NCBI RefSeq assembly: GCF_013294065.1
Contig: NZ_JABSNM010000032.1
Span: forward strand, 1-36,219
DNA: 36,219 nt
Reading direction: 5' to 3'
Source: Sphaerotilus uruguayifluvii
Lineage (GTDB): Bacteria; Pseudomonadota; Gammaproteobacteria; Burkholderiales; Burkholderiaceae_C
A program made the translations under genes and the position numbers. Positions 1 through 36,219 of this stretch are shown piece after piece; position 1 is the stretch's first letter, and the number at the start of each line of letters is the position of its first letter. The notes beneath the pieces were generated by a model. The model searched no databases, was not told the DNA's origin, and was given only the letters and a program-made list of their open reading frames with translations.

Positions 1-152
1 ACCGGCGTGCGCGGCTTGGTCTCCATCGCGTGCGCGATCTGCGGCACGAAGGCCGGGCCGAGACCCAGCGAGGTCGCGGTGAGCGAGCAGTATTTGAGGA
101 GGCTGCGGCGCGAGATGCCTTGCCGCCGCATCACTTCGTAAAACGTTTCCAT
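1..152 (-). CDS. hupS: [NiFe]-hydrogenase small subunit precursor, N-terminal part only (cut by window edge)
   Basis: Only the first 50 codons are inside the window; the gene continues off the left edge. The start is the ATG at 152, with a GAGGAG ribosome-binding sequence about 6 nt upstream. The N-terminus reads [20 protein letters not shown], a twin-arginine signal with an S-R-R-x-L-L-K core (the usual Phe is Leu). It then runs through a hydrophobic stretch to a predicted signal-peptidase site near AHA-METKP. This closely resembles HoxK/HupS of membrane-bound uptake hydrogenases, which carry three Fe-S clusters and are exported by Tat already bound to the large subunit. The cluster-binding cysteines lie outside the window. 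The gene follows cheD by 169 bp, which is not its expected neighbour. The family call is secure; whether the gene is intact cannot be judged here. Confidence 0.9.
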
Positions 153-10449: not shown

Positions 10450-11583
10450 TCAGCCGCGGAAGTATCGGTGAGGCGCGAAGGGCATCGCGGTGACCTGCAT
10501 CGGCACGCGCTTGCCGCGCACCTCGGCGAACAGCGCGGTGCCGACCGCCGCCAGCGCGGTCTCGACGTAGCCCATCGCGATCGGCTGGCCGACGCTCGGG
10601 CCGACCGTGCCGCTGGTGACCTGGCCGACGCGGCTGCCCTCGGCGTCGAGCAGCGGCGCGCCCTCGCGCACCGGCAGCCGCTCCAGGCCCGCCAGGCCGA
10701 CGCGACGGCGCGAGGCGCCGCCGGTCAGCTGCGCGCCGATCACCTCGGCGCCGGGGTAGCCGCCGGCGCGCTCGCCGCCCGGGCGGCGCAGCTTCTGGAT
10801 CGCCCAGACCAGACCGGCCTCGACCGGCGTGGTCGCCGTGTCGATGTCGTGGCCGTAGAGGCACAGGCCGGCTTCCAGGCGCAGCGTGTCGCGGGCGCCC
10901 AGGCCCGCGGGCGCGACCTCGGGCTGGGCCAGCAGCGCGCGCGCGAGTTCCACCGCCTGCGCGGCGGGCACCGAGATCTCGTAGCCGTCCTCGCCGGTGT
11001 AGCCCGAGCGGGTGACGAAGCAGTCGGCGCCGGCCAGGCGGAAGTGGCCGCCGGTCATGAAGGTGAGCGCGGCCACGCCGGCGTCCAGGCGCGCGAGCGC
11101 GTCCACCGCCTTCGGGCCCTGCAGCGCCAGCAGCACGCGCTCGGGCTCGGGGATCACCTGGCAGCGCGTGCCGATCTGCGCCTGCAGATGGGCGATGTCG
11201 GCGTCCTTGCAGCCGGCGTTGACCACCAGGAACAGGTCGTCCTCGCGGCGGGTGACCATCAGGTCGTCGCGCAGGCCGCCGGCGTCGTTGGTGAAGAAGG
11301 CGTAGCGCTGCTTGAGCAGGCCCAGGCCGGCGATGTCCTGCGGCACCAGCGTCTCCAGCGCCGCCGCGGCGTCGTCGCCCACCAGGCGCACCTGGCCCAT
11401 GTGCGAGACGTCGAAGAGGGCGGCGGCCTCGCGGCACTGGCGGTGCTCGGCGATGATGCCGGCCGGATACTGCACCGGCATCGCGTAGCCGGCGAAGGGC
11501 ACCATGCGGGCGCCGAGTTCGAGGTGCAGCGCGTGCAGCGGGGTCTGCAGCAGCGGGGCGGAGGCGGCGGGAGCGTCGGACAT
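10450..11583 (-). CDS. gcvT: Aminomethyltransferase, T protein of the glycine cleavage system
   Basis: The product has 377 residues (Escherichia coli GcvT has 364). It releases ammonia from the aminomethyl-lipoyl H protein and transfers the methylene group to tetrahydrofolate. Typical motifs are LHLELGARMVPFAGY near the N-terminus, FDVSHMGQV, RSGYTGEDGYEI and GLGARDTLRLEAGLCLYG. The ATG at 11583 is preferred because the conserved domain begins shortly after it; an in-frame ATG at 11625 would add 14 residues and lies nearer the riboswitch. It is the first gene behind the glycine riboswitch. Confidence 0.96.
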   Translation of the reverse strand: MSDAPAASAPLLQTPLHALHLELGARMVPFAGYAMPVQYPAGIIAEHRQCREAAALFDVSHMGQVRLVGDDAAAALETLVPQDIAGLGLLKQRYAFFTNDAGGLRDDLMVTRREDDLFLVVNAGCKDADIAHLQAQIGTRCQVIPEPERVLLALQGPKAVDALARLDAGVAALTFMTGGHFRLAGADCFVTRSGYTGEDGYEISVPAAQAVELARALLAQPEVAPAGLGARDTLRLEAGLCLYGHDIDTATTPVEAGLVWAIQKLRRPGGERAGGYPGAEVIGAQLTGGASRRRVGLAGLERLPVREGAPLLDAEGSRVGQVTSGTVGPSVGQPIAMGYVETALAAVGTALFAEVRGKRVPMQVTAMPFAPHRYFRG

Positions 11584-11664
11584 CGGGCGGCTCGCTTTCG
11601 TCGAGGTCGAGGGCAATCGGGTCATCGATCTTGAACGGATCGGTCCATCGTCGATCGATGGTGC

Positions 11665-11922
11665 TGCCCTCGCTGTCCGCTTTACCTGAGAGATTGACGC
11701 TGCACGATCCAGGCGGATCGCGTGGCGCTTGCCCCTTCGGTGGACCGCGTCGCCTCGCCTGCTGGCGCTGCCCGCGGTCTCTCTCCAGTGAGGTGTCGGC
11801 CGCGCGTTCTTCGGGTCGCGCGCGGCCGCTTGCCAGTCCTTCTGCCTGAGCGTTCGAGATCGGGGTTTCAGTCCCGCCTCTGCGCCTTCGGCGGCCGCGC
11901 TCGGGGGCGCGGCTCTCTCCTG
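11665..11922 (-). ncRNA. Tandem glycine riboswitch
   Basis: On the minus strand the gcvT leader contains two consecutive glycine-aptamer signatures. Aptamer 1 spans about 11836-11922: GGAGAGAGCC, then GCCGCCGAAGGCGCAGA, ending near CAGGCAGAAGGACTGG. Aptamer 2 spans about 11665-11790: CTGGAGAGAGACC, then CCACCGAAGGGGCAA, ending ATCTCTCAGGTAAAGCGGACAG. The paired GGAGAG and CCGAAGGxGCAA elements are diagnostic of this family, which binds glycine and usually switches on gcv expression. It sits directly upstream of gcvTHP, and aptamer 2 ends about 80 nt before the gcvT start. The boundaries are approximate. Confidence 0.93.
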
Positions 11923-11931
11923 GCGGCGCGC

Positions 11932-11971: not shown

Positions 11972-12967
11972 CTATCTCCGCCCGGTCTTCCGGATCTGCG
12001 GCGCCACGACCCGGTGGTCGGCGGTGGCGTTCTCGCGCACCCGGCGCGGGGTGGCGCTCTTCGACAGCGAGGCCAGCGCGACGAACCAGGCCTTGGGCAT
12101 GTCGGTGGGCAGGCCCACCGGGATGCCGGCGATCTTGGGCGTCTCGGCGAAGGCATGGCCGGGGTCCTGGAAGCCGGGCTCGGTGCAGGAAATGCAGGCG
12201 TGGCCGCCGCGGGTGCAGCTGCCTTCGCCGTTCCACAGCCGGGTGTTGCAGTCGGCATGCGCCTGCGTGCCCTTGCAGCCCATGTGCTCCATCATGCAGC
12301 CGAGGTCGGAGGGCTTCTCGGCGCTGGCCTTGAACTCGTAGAACTCGTTGCGGGTGCAGCCGTGGTGCACCAGCTGGTCGGCATAGAAGCGCGGCCGGCC
12401 GAGCGCGTCGAGGTCGCCGGGGCCGAGCAGGTCGGCCGCCAGCGCCATCAGCGTCTCCAGCACCCAGCCCGGATGCGTCGGGCAGCCGGCGATGTTGACC
12501 ACCGGCAGGCCGGAGCGGCTGCGGAAGTCGGGCCCGAGCAGGCCGCCCGGGCGCGCGTCGTCGTGCTGCAGACCGGTGGCCTCGGTCGGGTTGCTGCCGG
12601 CCGCGGTCACGCCGCCCCAGGCCGCGCAGGCGCCGACGGCCACCACATGGCGCGCCACGCCGGCCAGCCGCCGCACCCAGTCGATCATCGGCACGCCGGT
12701 GCCGGCCAGCACGTGGAAGCGCCCGCTGCCGTTCGGCCCGCGCAGCAGCGCGCCCTCGACGCACAGCGCGTCCAGCGCGATCCGGCCGGCCAGCAGGTTG
12801 TCGAGCAGCGCGACCATGTCCGCCCCGCTGGCCAGCGACAGCGAAGGATGCCAGAGCAGCCGGATGCCCGCGCCCTCGAGCTGGCCGGCGAAGTCGGCGG
12901 TGTCGGCGCACAGCAGCGACATCGAGCAGCCGCCGCAGCCGCCCGACTGCAGCCACAGCAGGTTCAT
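11972..12967 (-). CDS. hoxB: Regulatory [NiFe]-hydrogenase small subunit (HoxB/HupU), without its large subunit
   Basis: The product has 331 residues. It begins MNLLWLQSGGCGGCSMSLLC with no Tat signal, the hallmark of the cytoplasmic H2-sensing (group 2b) small subunit. Ligands for three Fe-S clusters are intact: Cys11, Cys14, Cys114 and Cys162 (proximal); His201/202, Cys204, Cys224 and Cys231 (distal); Cys240, Cys258 and Cys261 (medial), plus Cys251, which could make the medial cluster [4Fe-4S]. In Cupriavidus, HoxB pairs with the large subunit HoxC and signals through HoxJ to HoxA. Here the ATG overlaps the hoxA stop (ATGA), but hoxC and hoxJ are absent; the gcv promoter follows immediately. 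The length is normal, so this is not a degraded remnant. Confidence 0.92.
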   Translation of the reverse strand: MNLLWLQSGGCGGCSMSLLCADTADFAGQLEGAGIRLLWHPSLSLASGADMVALLDNLLAGRIALDALCVEGALLRGPNGSGRFHVLAGTGVPMIDWVRRLAGVARHVVAVGACAAWGGVTAAGSNPTEATGLQHDDARPGGLLGPDFRSRSGLPVVNIAGCPTHPGWVLETLMALAADLLGPGDLDALGRPRFYADQLVHHGCTRNEFYEFKASAEKPSDLGCMMEHMGCKGTQAHADCNTRLWNGEGSCTRGGHACISCTEPGFQDPGHAFAETPKIAGIPVGLPTDMPKAWFVALASLSKSATPRRVRENATADHRVVAPQIRKTGRR

Positions 12968-14490
12968 GGCAGGTCCCCGGCCGATGCGGGCGCATCCTCG
13001 AGCTGGAAGCGTCGCAGCTTGGCGCGCAGCCCGACGCGCGACAGGCCCAGCTCGGCGGCCGCGCGGGTCTTGTTCCAGCGGTGGCGCAGCAGCGTCTCGC
13101 GCAGCACCATCGCCTCGATCGCGTCCAGGCGCTCCTGCAGCGTGCCGCTCTGCGGCAGGCCGGGCAGGTTCAGGCCGGGCGCGCCGGCCGGCGCATGGCG
13201 GCCGGTCTGGCCGTGCAGCACGGTGGCGGAGAAGTCGTGCGGCGCGATCCGGCGGCCGTCGCCCAGCACGATCGCGCGGGCGATCTCGTTGCGCAGCTCG
13301 CGGATGTTGCCCGGCCAGGGGTAGGCCATCAGCACCGCGATCGCCTCCGGCCCGATGCCGACCTCGGGCAGGCCGAGTTCGGCGCCGACCTCGCCGACGA
13401 GCCGGCGCGCCAGCGGCGCGATGTCGCCGGCCCGCTCGCGCAGCGCCGGCATCTGCAGCGTCATGCCGGCCAGGCGGTAGTAGAGGTCCTCGCGGAAGCG
13501 CCCGGCGCGCACCTCGTCGTCGAGCCGGCGGTGCGTCGCGGCGATCACGCGCACGTCCACCGGCACCGGCCGCGGCGAGCCCACCGGTCGCAGCTCGCCT
13601 TCCTGCAGCACGCGCAGCAGCTTGACCTGGAAGGCCGGCGAGGTCTCGCCGATCTCGTCGAGGAAGACGGTGCCGCCGTGGGCGCGCTGGAACAGGCCGA
13701 CATGGTCCTCGAAGGCGCCGGTGAAGGCGCCGCGCTTGTGGCCGAACAGCTCGGACTCGAGCAGCGTGTCGGGAATGGCGGCGCAGTTCTCCAGCACGAA
13801 GGGGCCGTCGGCGCGCGGGCTGGCGTAGTGGATCGCGCGGCCGAGCAGCTCCTTGCCGGTGCCCGACTCGCCCAGCACCAGCACCGGCAGGTCGAAGCGC
13901 GCCACCCGCGCGGCCATCGCGCAGACCGCGTCGAGCGGGCTGCCCGGCGTGCGCTCGATGCGCTCGAAGCCGAAGGTGGCGCGCGCCTGCGCCAGCCGGT
14001 CGCCGCGGCGGGTGCGCAGCGCGGTGGTGCCGGCGCGCAGGTCGAGCTCGAGCCGGCTGACGCCGCGCTGCAGCGTGCGCGCCTCCACCGCCTGGCGCAC
14101 CGTCTGCAGCAGGTGGTCGGGCACCCAGGGCTTGAGGATGTACTGGTAGATCCCGGCCTCGTTGATGCCGCGGATGATGTCCTCGCTGTCGGTGTAGCCG
14201 GAAATGACGATGCGCACCGTCTCCGGCCAGCGCTCGCGCACCTCGCGCAGGAACTCCACGCCGGTCAGCCCGGGCATGCGCTGGTCGCACAGGATGACCG
14301 CCGCCTCGTGGCGCTCGAGCAGCGCGCGCGCCTCCTCGGCCGAGCTGGCGCACAGGATGCGGAAGTCCTCGTCGAGCGTGCGGCGCATCGCGTCCTGCGA
14401 GCGCACCTCGTCGTCGACCAGCAGCACCAGCGGCAGGTCGGCCTCGTCGGGATCGGCGTCGTCGAAGGGCAGGGAATCGGGGGCGTTCAT
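12964..14490 (-). CDS. hoxA: Hydrogenase transcriptional activator HoxA/HupR (NtrC family)
   Basis: The product has 508 residues with receiver, AAA+ and DNA-binding domains. The receiver acceptor is Asp69 in ILCDQRMPG. The AAA+ domain has Walker A GESGTGKE (207-214), the sigma-54 contact loop GAFTGA (254-259), Walker B near 272-283 (TVFLDEIGE) and the arginine-finger segment FREDLYYRL. A C-terminal HTH (NKTRAAAELGLSRVGLRAKL) ends the protein. In relatives it activates sigma-54 promoters of hydrogenase genes. The ATG at 14490 overlaps the stop of the PAP2 gene, and its own stop overlaps hoxB, so it is translationally linked to both. The sensor kinase HoxJ is not in the window. Confidence 0.94.
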   Translation of the reverse strand: MNAPDSLPFDDADPDEADLPLVLLVDDEVRSQDAMRRTLDEDFRILCASSAEEARALLERHEAAVILCDQRMPGLTGVEFLREVRERWPETVRIVISGYTDSEDIIRGINEAGIYQYILKPWVPDHLLQTVRQAVEARTLQRGVSRLELDLRAGTTALRTRRGDRLAQARATFGFERIERTPGSPLDAVCAMAARVARFDLPVLVLGESGTGKELLGRAIHYASPRADGPFVLENCAAIPDTLLESELFGHKRGAFTGAFEDHVGLFQRAHGGTVFLDEIGETSPAFQVKLLRVLQEGELRPVGSPRPVPVDVRVIAATHRRLDDEVRAGRFREDLYYRLAGMTLQMPALRERAGDIAPLARRLVGEVGAELGLPEVGIGPEAIAVLMAYPWPGNIRELRNEIARAIVLGDGRRIAPHDFSATVLHGQTGRHAPAGAPGLNLPGLPQSGTLQERLDAIEAMVLRETLLRHRWNKTRAAAELGLSRVGLRAKLRRFQLEDAPASAGDLP

Positions 14491-28401: not shown

Positions 28402-28749
28402 TCAGTCGTCGTGGACCATCAGGTCGACGACGCGCAGCTCGGTGCCGCCGGTGGGCTGCAGCCGGAAGCCCCCGCACGACGGGCAGGCGTCGGCGCGCGA
28501 GCCGATCTCGACCGACTGGCCGCAGCCCAGGCACCAGGCGGTGCCGGGCGGCTCGTCGATGAGGATCTCGGCGCCTTCCAGACAGGTGCCCGGCACGCTG
28601 GCCTCGAGCGCGAAGCGCAGCGCGCGCACCTCGACGCCGCTGAGCGCGCCGGCCTCCAGCCGCAGCAGGCTGACGCGGCGGAAGCGTTCGCGCTCGGCCG
28701 CGTCCTCGACGAGCCGGACGATGCCGCCGGCGAGACTGAGTTCATGCAT
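28402..28749 (-). CDS. hypA: Nickel chaperone HypA
   Basis: The product has 115 residues. The N-terminal MHE motif (His2) binds nickel; the zinc site is Cys73/Cys76 and Cys89/Cys92 (two CxxC motifs 12 residues apart). It pairs with HypB. The ATG at 28749 overlaps the hupK end by 8 bp. Length and spacing are typical, so nickel delivery to HupL is the expected role. Confidence 0.96.
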
Positions 28750-29881
28750 CGGGGGTCACCTCGACATCGACACAGGGGTCGAAGGCCAGCGCGAGCAGAC
28801 GTGCGGCCTCGCCCTGGCGACCAGTATCCGGCAGCGCCGCCAGCGCCTGCGCCAGCGTGCCGCGCGGATGCGCATTCCATTCGGTGGGCGCCAGCACCTG
28901 CCAGGCGGCGACGCGCCGGCCGTCGGCCTCGAGCCGCACCCGGTGCAGCAGCAGGCCGCGCGCCATCTCGCACCAGGCCAGGCCGTCGCCGGGGCCGAGC
29001 GCCAGCGCGCCGCGCTGCAGCCGCCGTGCGCCGTCCGGCCCGGCCAGCCGCACCAGCTCGACCAGCCGCGCGCCGATGCGGCTCCAGGCGCTGGCGCCGG
29101 CCTGCGCGGCCTCGGCCGGCGGATCGGCCTCGCGGCACCACGGGCCGGTGTCGGGCACGCCAGCCGGCGTCGCATCGCCCGGCCGGTGCGGCAGGCGGCA
29201 GAAGCCGGCGTCGGCATCCATCGCGCGGGCCAGCGCGGCCCAGTCGGTCGTGCCGGGGCGCAGCGCCGCCGGGCCCGGCGTGGCCAGCGTGCGCGCCAGC
29301 GGCGCCAGCGCGGCCAGCGCATGCACCGGCGAGCCGGGATCGACCTCGCGGTGGCCGGCCTGTTCCTGCGCCCAGTGCGCGACGGCCTCGAGCCGATCGC
29401 ACGGCGCGGCCGCGTGCCGGCGCAGCCAGTCGGCCGGGGAACTGCCGAGCAGATGCCGCTGCAGCCAGGCCGGCAGCGCGGCGAGCCGCGCGATCGGATC
29501 GAGATCGTCGCGCCAGGGCGGGCTGGAACGCAGCCAGGCGGCGCCCGCGTCGGCACTCGTTCCGAGCCGTCGCGGCAGCTCGTGCCCCAGGCGCAGCAGA
29601 TGCTCGCGAGCGGTGCCCAGGCGCAGCGCCTGCGCGGCGACGGCCGCCTCGGCGGCGGACTCCGTCTGGCCGCGTGCGGCGCGCAGCGCGGCGCGAGCGC
29701 AGTCGCGGTGCGCGTCGGCGCACAGCGAGAACAGCGCGCCCAGCAGCGCCGGCAGGGTGTCGGCGTCGCGGCCCGGCGCCAGCCGGGCGAGCCAGTCGGG
29801 CCGCCCGCCGCTGATCGCCGGGCCGTCGCGGCGACCCGGGTGCAGGCGCAGATGGCCGGCCAGGGCGCGGGCGTCGGTCAT
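28742..29881 (-). CDS. hupK: Hydrogenase maturation factor HupK/HoxV
   Basis: The product has 379 residues. HupK/HoxV proteins are degenerate relatives of the hydrogenase large subunit that, with HoxL/HupF, act as a transient scaffold for the Fe(CN)2CO unit. Here the large-subunit-like end is clear: RGLLLHRVRLE, WQVLAPTEWNAHPRG and a vestigial AFDPCVDVEV where real large subunits have DPCxxCxxH. The N-terminal half is Ala/Arg-rich and diverged, as usual for the family. The ATG at 29881 overlaps the hupJ stop (ATGA). Confidence 0.88.
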   Translation of the reverse strand: MTDARALAGHLRLHPGRRDGPAISGGRPDWLARLAPGRDADTLPALLGALFSLCADAHRDCARAALRAARGQTESAAEAAVAAQALRLGTAREHLLRLGHELPRRLGTSADAGAAWLRSSPPWRDDLDPIARLAALPAWLQRHLLGSSPADWLRRHAAAPCDRLEAVAHWAQEQAGHREVDPGSPVHALAALAPLARTLATPGPAALRPGTTDWAALARAMDADAGFCRLPHRPGDATPAGVPDTGPWCREADPPAEAAQAGASAWSRIGARLVELVRLAGPDGARRLQRGALALGPGDGLAWCEMARGLLLHRVRLEADGRRVAAWQVLAPTEWNAHPRGTLAQALAALPDTGRQGEAARLLALAFDPCVDVEVTPDA

Positions 29882-33735: not shown

Positions 33736-34476
33736 TCAGTCCTTGAAGGTGCGGTAGCCCGAGATCATCGTGCTGACGATGCTCTGGCGGCCCATGATGT
33801 CCTCGCGGATCGCCGCATAGATGTGAAGCGTCACGAAGATCGCCATGCCCCACATGCCCATGCGGTGCCAGGTGTGCACGTCCTGCGACTGGCCCATCAG
33901 CGGGATGACCCAGCCGAAGAGCCGGTCGGCCCAGGAGCCGCCGCCCAGACCCTCGCCGTACATCGCGAAGCCGGTGCAGACCATGAACACCGAGAACAGG
34001 AAGAAGCCGCAGAACATCGCCAGCCGCGCCATCGGGTTGTGGCCGACGTACTGGTTGGGCTTCGGCACCAGGAACAGGTACCAGCCGATCATCCGGAACA
34101 CTTCCTTCCAGTACGCGGGCGTCAGCAGCGGCAGCGTGAACAGCTCGCGCGCGTGGTGGTTGCCCACCAGCGCCCAGTAGATCCGCCCGAGCAGGCCGAC
34201 CGCGAACACATAGGCCGCGGCGAAGTGCGCGAAGCGGATGTAGCCCATCAGGAAATGGTCGCTGGCCTCGCCGGGCATCGTCGGCAGCGGGCGGCCGATG
34301 AAGTAGCCGGTGACGGCCAGCACGGTGATCGCCAGCGCGTTGATCCAGTGCCAGACGCGCACCGGCGCCTCGTACACGTAGACCGACTTGATCGAGCGGC
34401 CGTGCGCGACCGCGTCGGCGTCGATGCCGGTGGCGCCGGCCAGCTTCTGCGAAGTCGGCGAAGCGTGACTGCTCAT
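33736..34476 (-). CDS. hupC: Ni/Fe-hydrogenase b-type cytochrome HupC/HoxZ
   Basis: The product has 246 residues. It anchors the hydrogenase to the membrane and passes electrons to quinone. It has about four membrane helices with His residues for two b hemes: RVWHWINALAI (first helix), YIRFAHFAAAYVFAVG, and DVHTWHRMGMWGMAIFVTLHIYAAI near the C-terminus. The ATG at 34476 follows hupE by 43 nt. Normally it directly follows hupL; here hupE intervenes. Confidence 0.95.
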   Translation of the reverse strand: MSSHASPTSQKLAGATGIDADAVAHGRSIKSVYVYEAPVRVWHWINALAITVLAVTGYFIGRPLPTMPGEASDHFLMGYIRFAHFAAAYVFAVGLLGRIYWALVGNHHARELFTLPLLTPAYWKEVFRMIGWYLFLVPKPNQYVGHNPMARLAMFCGFFLFSVFMVCTGFAMYGEGLGGGSWADRLFGWVIPLMGQSQDVHTWHRMGMWGMAIFVTLHIYAAIREDIMGRQSIVSTMISGYRTFKD

Positions 34477-35145: not shown

Positions 35146-36219
35146 TCAGCGCACCTTGACGGTGGCCATTTCCTGGCCGTCCGGGCTCATGACGTGCGTC
35201 GAGCAGGCCAGGCAGGGGTCGAAGGAATGCAGGGTGCGCAGGATCTCGACCGGCTGCTCCGGGTTGACCATCGGCGTGTTCAGCAGCGAGGCCTCGAAGG
35301 CGCCGATCTGGCCCTTGTGGTCGCGCGGGCTGCCGTTCCAGGTGGTCGGCACGACGCACTGGTAGTTCTCGATCTTGCCGTCCTTGATGCGGATCCAGTG
35401 GCCGAGCATGCCGCGCGGCGCGGCGACGGTGCCCACGCCCTTGGCCTCCTTCGGCCAGGTGCTCGGGTCCCACTTCTCGACGTTGGCGGTGGCGGTGTCG
35501 CCCGCCTTGATGTTGCCGACGAGCTGGCGGAAGTCGTCCATCAGCATCTCGCTGCAGTACTGGCTCTCGAGCGCGCGCGCCAGCGTGCGGCCGATGGTGC
35601 TGGGCAGCAGCTGCTTGAGCGTGTAGTCGGTCTCCGGCAGGCCCAGCGCCTTCGGCACGTCGTGGTTGACCATGCGCGCGGAGAAGTCCACCTGCTCCTT
35701 GACGCGCTGGCAGTGCTTGTTCCCTTGGGTGGCGTGCACGTAGCCGAGGATGTAGCGCGACAGCGGGCCGACCTCGACCGCGTGGCCGCGCCAGCGCGGC
35801 GACTTGATCCACGAGTACTTGGCCGACTCGTCGAGCTGCTCGATGTGGGTGCGCGTGCCCTTGAAGTTCGGGCCCTCGGGCTTGAAGTCCGGCTCGGTGA
35901 CGCCGTCCCAGGGGTGCAGGCCCCGGGTCTCGTCGCCGTACTTGTACCAGCTGTGGGTCACGAACTCCTGCACCTGCTCGGGGTCGCGCGGGTCGATCGG
36001 GTGGATCTTGTCCCAGTTGCCGTCGAGGATCACGCCGCCGGGCAGCTGGTGCGTGGCGTGGTCGTAGGGCACCTTCTCGTAGGTGCCGTAGTCGGCGACG
36101 TTCTTCGCGCTCAGGCCGCCGCCGTGCAGCCAGCCGGCCTGCTTGTAGATCGTGCCGATCGCCAGCACGTCCGGGATGTAGACGTTGTTGTTGAACTCGA
36201 TCATCTCCCGGATGCGGGC
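35146..36219 (-). CDS. hupL: [NiFe]-hydrogenase large subunit, C-terminal 357 residues (cut by window edge)
   Basis: The catalytic H2-binding subunit; the first about 260 residues lie beyond the right edge. The visible part runs from [17 protein letters not shown] through [20 protein letters not shown] and [20 protein letters not shown] to the C-terminal nickel motif DPCLACSTH. The last 15 residues ([15 protein letters not shown]) form the extension that HupD would remove after the His. The sequence resembles HoxG/HupL of membrane-bound uptake hydrogenases. The N-terminal Cys pair cannot be checked. The gene is followed 32 nt later by hupE. No hupS is visible upstream because the window ends. 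Confidence 0.95.

Follow-up and report, generated by a model that had tools for sequence, protein, structure and literature searches.

HoxB of Sphaerotilus uruguayifluvii as the probable small subunit of a regulatory hydrogenase with its partners HoxC and HoxJ encoded at the opposite end of the hup cluster

Background

Regulatory [NiFe]-hydrogenases of the HoxBC/HupUV kind, which we take to be group 2b, usually have hoxB next to hoxC. In Cupriavidus necator the genes hoxA-hoxB-hoxC-hoxJ are contiguous, while in Rhodobacter capsulatus and Bradyrhizobium japonicum the sensor genes hupU and hupV stand together upstream of hupSL, with the regulator gene downstream. In C. necator, HoxBC, HoxJ and HoxA accompany the cluster of the membrane-bound uptake hydrogenase (PMC4257681), and the regulatory hydrogenase passes the H2 signal via HoxJ to HoxA, such that without H2 HoxJ phosphorylates and inactivates HoxA, the unphosphorylated HoxA being the activating form (PMC10073562).

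Here, we present an analysis of a hoxB gene located in the window, a stretch of 36,219 nucleotides that makes up one entire contig (C32) of the 48-contig assembly of Sphaerotilus uruguayifluvii (genome G000). An earlier note on this DNA had described a complete hoxB without hoxC or hoxJ, and had offered two options: either the missing genes sit elsewhere after a rearrangement, or HoxB has taken on a role alone or with HupL. Based on the gene content of the whole assembly and on the gene order in relatives, we consider it highly probable (roughly 0.93) that this HoxB serves as small subunit in a regulatory [NiFe]-hydrogenase of the ordinary HoxBC/HupUV type, with the genes of HoxC and HoxJ heading the hup cluster to which hoxB belongs, assembly of the sensor in trans and control of hupS by HoxA.

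Results

HoxB is intact with all its Fe-S ligands, as the earlier note had read it from the sequence: the frame of 331 aa carries both NiFe small-subunit domains (PF01058 and PF14720), and twelve Cys/His residues (C11, C14, C114, C162, H201, C204, C224, C231, C240, C251, C258 and C261) are each identical in 82/82 HoxB sequences. We take these twelve to be the expected ligands of three Fe-S clusters plus C251, the assignment of residues to clusters being part of the same assumption. Conservation extends to the C-terminal part, where a single residue occupies at least 95% of the rows in 38 of the 57 columns of residues 275-331, versus 157 of 274 before. By eye, the N-terminus (MNLLWLQSGGCGGC) has no Tat signal, while HupS has an RRSLLK leader. 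Among solved structures, 43 distinct sequences match HoxB at E values up to 1e-5; the best of them, at E 2.7e-73, is 7uur, which bears the name Hydrogenase-2 small subunit and is presumably the mycobacterial Huc. Identity amounts to 99% with HoxB of S. sulfidivorans D-501 and 98% with that of S. natans ATCC 13338.

The coupling of hoxB to hoxA by an ATGA overlap, also claimed earlier, can be read directly at the junction (GCCATGAACC), and HoxA carries GAFTGA and DQRMPG motifs. The spacing from hoxB to gcvT varies between relatives and is ~0.35 kb in the window, where the earlier note had placed the start of a gcv promoter 11 bp beyond the hoxB stop and a weak TTGGCG-N16-TTAAAC was read by eye at this place. 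A decayed hoxC behind hoxB was considered and rejected, there being no hoxC match anywhere past hoxB in the window and so short a distance to gcvT. The features of the window and of contig C16 are collected in Table 1.

Table 1. Positions of the hydrogenase genes and neighbouring features in the window and on contig C16.
Feature	Contig	Position	Strand	Description and basis
hupS, second start	window	1..152	-	Tat leader; cut by contig end; 165 bp match the C16-end hupS start with 94.5% identity
gcvT	window	10450..11625	-	first gene past hoxB
Glycine riboswitch aptamers (two, tandem)	window	11663..11923	-	between hoxB and gcvT; Rfam RF00504, 50.0 and 40.2 bits
hoxB	window	11972..12967	-	small subunit of the regulatory hydrogenase, 331 aa, lacking a Tat signal; translation, PF01058 + PF14720, Cys/His ligands
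hoxA	window	12964..14490	-	NtrC-type response regulator, 508 aa (receiver, sigma54 AAA+, HTH_8); Pfam
HupK	window	28742..29881	-	degenerate, large-subunit-like; PF00374 23.9 bits, under the cut-off of 25.8
hupC	window	33736..34476	-	cytochrome b561-type hydrogenase subunit; PF01292
hupL, copy 1	window	35146..36219	-	cut by the other contig end; by synteny would run on toward hupS on C16
hoxC	C16	108909-110396		full-length, 495 aa
hoxJ	C16	110426-111790		454 aa, PAS + HisKA + HATPase_c; Pfam

The reported absence of HoxC and HoxJ holds for the window contig and fails for the genome. Within the window, tblastn gave no match to HoxJ (Leptothrix discophora query) and no HoxC, the best match to the latter being hupL with 30% identity. 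Across the genome, Pfam gave five matches to the large subunit, namely two hupL (at the right end of the window and where contig C26 begins), HupK and, on contig C16, two stretches belonging to a single protein. This protein is HoxC, with 67% identity to that of L. discophora (tblastn), and is directly followed by HoxJ (64%), the pair being located 0.6 kb from the end of C16. HoxC of G000 shares 98% identity with that of genome G315 and 78% with that of G058. It lacks a C-terminal extension and ends in DPCMVCTVH, the final His of which is present in 76/76 HoxC rows. I62 and F110 are likewise found in 76/76 rows (S. natans HupL has V and L there), and we assume from work on C. necator that Ile62 and Phe110 are the bulky residues of the gas channel. 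The genome thus combines the Fe-S ligands, the missing Tat signal and C-terminal extension, I62/F110 and the presence of both HoxJ and HoxA, all of them features of regulatory hydrogenases; the adjoining of hoxB and hoxC, which is usual and not defining, is not seen in G000, where the two genes are on separate contigs.

The contig ends coincide with a repeat. C16 stops inside hupS, past the Tat leader, and the left end of the window (minus strand) lies inside a second hupS, the last 95 bp of these two ends being identical, while the two hupL copies are 91.9% identical over 1075 bp. Since four contig ends lie in copies of hupS or hupL and the assembly yielded no hupS body, its only match to the small-subunit C-terminal domain being HoxB, we conclude that a duplicated hupSL stretch is absent from the assembly and that all four ends break off at it. 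HoxC and HoxJ would accordingly appear on a separate contig because hupSL is duplicated and the assembly halts at it. C26 continues for 252 bp past its 95-bp match, and its end is therefore not a plain k-mer break.

Gene order in relatives points to how these contigs would join. In S. natans ATCC 13338 the order is hoxC-hoxJ-hupSL...hoxA-hoxB, with gcvT, cheD and aroC further on along the same contig; a single BLAST alignment of 3512 columns, at 92.4%, matches the hoxC-hoxJ-hupS stretch of C16 to this genome, and the hupL end of the window follows 1.77 kb past that stretch, on the same contig and strand. G058 shows the same order on a single contig, as does G315 on two contigs, the break between which falls inside hupK. 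Because cheD (left end of the window) and aroC (C26) adjoin in S. natans and G315, 25 bp apart, we regard C26 as the other neighbour of the window; in G058, where the best cheD match reaches 36% only, the two are not neighbours. By this synteny the contigs would be ordered C16 - hupSL1 - C32 - hupSL2 - C26 across an unsequenced gap, and, given a gap of the same length as in S. natans, the end of hoxJ would lie ~24 kb before the start of hoxA. Most likely, then, a single hup cluster opens with hoxC-hoxJ and closes with hoxA-hoxB. Of the two options raised earlier, it is the placement of hoxC and hoxJ elsewhere after a rearrangement that agrees with these results, the pair on C16 corresponding to the head of the hup cluster in S. 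natans and the split arrangement being shared by S. natans, S. sulfidivorans and G058. Also by synteny, hupS2-hupL2, a convergent cytochrome b gene and a chemotaxis-receptor gene would lie between cheD and aroC (window 1-152, minus strand; L120:1-3598), and in G058 (L122:10431-11618) a gene between hoxJ and hupS resembles, by eye, a PilT-type ATPase.

The split is rare beyond this genus. Among the best 80 of 575 loci found with HoxB, hoxC lies at most 1 kb after hoxB in 72 and at 2.6 kb in 3 (Derxia); in another 3 (S. sulfidivorans, S. natans and MAG.507) there is no hoxC within 10 kb past hoxB, and in 2 too little sequence is left past hoxB. In the family, HoxC is present at E <= 1e-100 in 68/399 genomes (with up to 3 candidates scored in each), and 67 of these also have HoxB (up to 5 candidates scored in each). 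When the positions were compared by eye, the two were within 2 kb in 63/67, including partial matches in G065, G274 and G336 (only part of HoxB) and in G209 (part of HoxC), and were split in 4/67 (G000, G315, G058 and G248), all in the genus of the window, a further member of which, G373, has hoxB and hoxC adjacent. In G248, a MAG, hoxC and hoxJ lie near gcvT on one contig, with hup and hoxAB on another.

Variations on the usual arrangement were also seen elsewhere. The ~2.6 kb interval between hoxB and hoxC in Derxia (L044:10996-13574), the same in L047 and L075, contains an opposite-strand frame matching multicopper oxidase domains. Two loci (L020:12723-16496; L127:9975-13613) encode, between hoxC and hoxJ, a hybrid histidine kinase in which Pfam recognises PAS, HisKA, HATPase, receiver and Hpt domains; a reading of the gene in this position in G248 and L020 as a GGDEF/EAL protein was ruled out by Pfam. 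G170 has no NiFe large subunit and only fragments of hoxA and hoxB, on a contig with gcvT, cheD and aroC (L132:12152-12655, G170:C9). G354 represents the reverse orphan, with hoxC-hoxJ (L133:5170-7975, G354:C13) and no match to the HoxB query for either HoxB or HupS among 9/9 candidates scored, a gap being possible in its ~140 contigs.

A small divergent gene adjoins hoxC in all five split genomes (G000, G315, G400, G058 and G248), occupies another position in L. discophora and Sphaerotilus mobilis and was not found in G170. As it accompanies hoxC in all five, the position of hoxC-hoxJ is probably old in the split group. Trees of HoxB and HoxC were built on 76 shared rows, with L010, L011 and L012 dropped as the same genomes as G315, G400 and G248, as judged by equal coordinates and, for L011, by the handle G400. 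The window is grouped with G315, G400 and G058 in the HoxC tree (support 100/99) and in the HoxB tree (93/94, with the long-branched MAG row L035 inside), and the five split genomes form one group in 4% (HoxB) and 3% (HoxC) of bootstrap trees, which makes G248 an unsure member. A foreign replacement of hoxCJ was considered and set aside, as both trees agree on the grouping of the window; with the deep branches unresolved and G248 firmly in neither, the trees prove neither conflict nor co-descent.

Purifying selection on hoxB is indicated among the three closest genomes (G000, G315 and G400), with dN/dS of 0.079, 0.070 and 0.046 for the three pairs (0.05-0.08), compared with 0.21-0.22 versus G058 and 0.24-0.44 versus G248. 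Among the same three genomes, dN/dS was 0.11-0.24 for hoxC (0.40-0.47 versus G058, 0.48-0.70 versus G248), 0.14-0.22 for hoxJ (up to 0.46 versus G248) and 0.13-0.21 for hoxA (up to 0.43 versus G248). Third codon positions are mostly G or C, and the larger of these values, which are given uncorrected, may be inflated by underestimation of dS at such positions. Upstream of hupS, a search with one pattern in the split genomes other than G248 located the sigma54-like box GGCACGCGACTTG 47-50 bp before the start in 4/4 copies that follow hoxJ (G000 on C16, G400, G315 and G058). The same single pattern did not find the box before hupS2, and a loose pattern revealed no evident conserved box of this kind before hoxC.

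Discussion

A regulatory hydrogenase whose genes are divided over the two ends of one cluster is supported by gene content, by the gene order of relatives, by the intact residues and the conserved promoter-like box, and by purifying selection among closely related genomes; the link across the gap and the assembly in trans are predicted from these, and the signalling steps from C. necator. As all four genes are open, the simplest reading is that the circuit is the same as in C. necator. HoxB and HoxC would be made at the two ends of the cluster and assembled in trans, and in the presence of H2 the HoxBC-HoxJ complex would, by analogy with C. necator, lift the inactivation of HoxA by HoxJ, upon which HoxA, by the same analogy, would activate the sigma54-like promoter before hupS.

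The sensor subunits could also be usefully uncoupled, with HoxB produced together with HoxA, and HoxC together with HoxJ, from two transcription units, one at either end of the cluster. The amount of HoxB relative to HoxC-HoxJ would then act as a second input setting the strength of H2 control over hupSL, an extension that we regard as unlikely. Still less likely is a sensor in decay, in which hoxA and hoxB are leftovers and hupSL is expressed constitutively, as unphosphorylated HoxA is active in C. necator: the remnants in G170, where no large subunit was found, fit such a course, but in G000 all four frames are open, dN/dS is low among close relatives and the kinase, receiver and ligand motifs are present. 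We give hardly any weight to HoxB as an orphan acting alone or with HupL, the second option of the earlier note. Conservation of hoxB and the lack of hoxC within 10 kb downstream of it in S. natans and S. sulfidivorans would be expected of an orphan, but both of these species and G000 possess the hoxC-hoxJ pair, two hupS starts for the two hupL copies provide HupL with a partner of its own kind, and HupS has the Tat signal that HoxB lacks; with a conserved HoxC that bears regulatory-hydrogenase features in the same genome, and an arrangement common to S. natans, S. sulfidivorans and G058, this option finds no support. That the split itself is an error of assembly or binning is equally hard to credit, for although the window's contig ends at a repeat and G248 is a MAG, gcvT follows hoxB inside the contig, no hoxC or hoxJ follows hoxB in G315, G400 or G058, and both cluster ends are on one contig in S. 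natans and G058.

The preferred reading of a divided but ordinary regulatory hydrogenase removes a false orphan, a contig break having made a standard H2 sensor look partnerless. It also describes a rearranged order of sensor genes, confined to one genus in the family sample, which suggests that co-transcription of the two subunits is dispensable and offers a natural test of sensor-subunit assembly in trans. The available text of a paper on hupUV clusters makes no mention of parted hupU and hupV, a literature search too small to call the split unreported, and in a limited search on Sphaerotilus hydrogenases neither word occurred in the title or abstract of any paper returned.

Compared with known systems, the locus contains the same four kinds of protein as C. 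necator (Ralstonia eutropha), namely the HoxBC sensor, the HoxJ kinase and the HoxA regulator, the names being used here by family homology. Gene order is the difference between the two, with hoxC-hoxJ opening and hoxA-hoxB closing the cluster in G000, and the circuit is otherwise read as the same. The contiguous order hoxA-hoxB-hoxC-hoxJ is found in L. discophora (L042; HoxB 80% and HoxC 67% identical to G000) and in S. mobilis (L050; 79% and 66%). A parallel in layout exists with HupUV of R. capsulatus and B. japonicum, where sensor genes likewise lie upstream and the regulator gene downstream of hupSL, whereas in S. uruguayifluvii the two sensor subunits themselves are parted.
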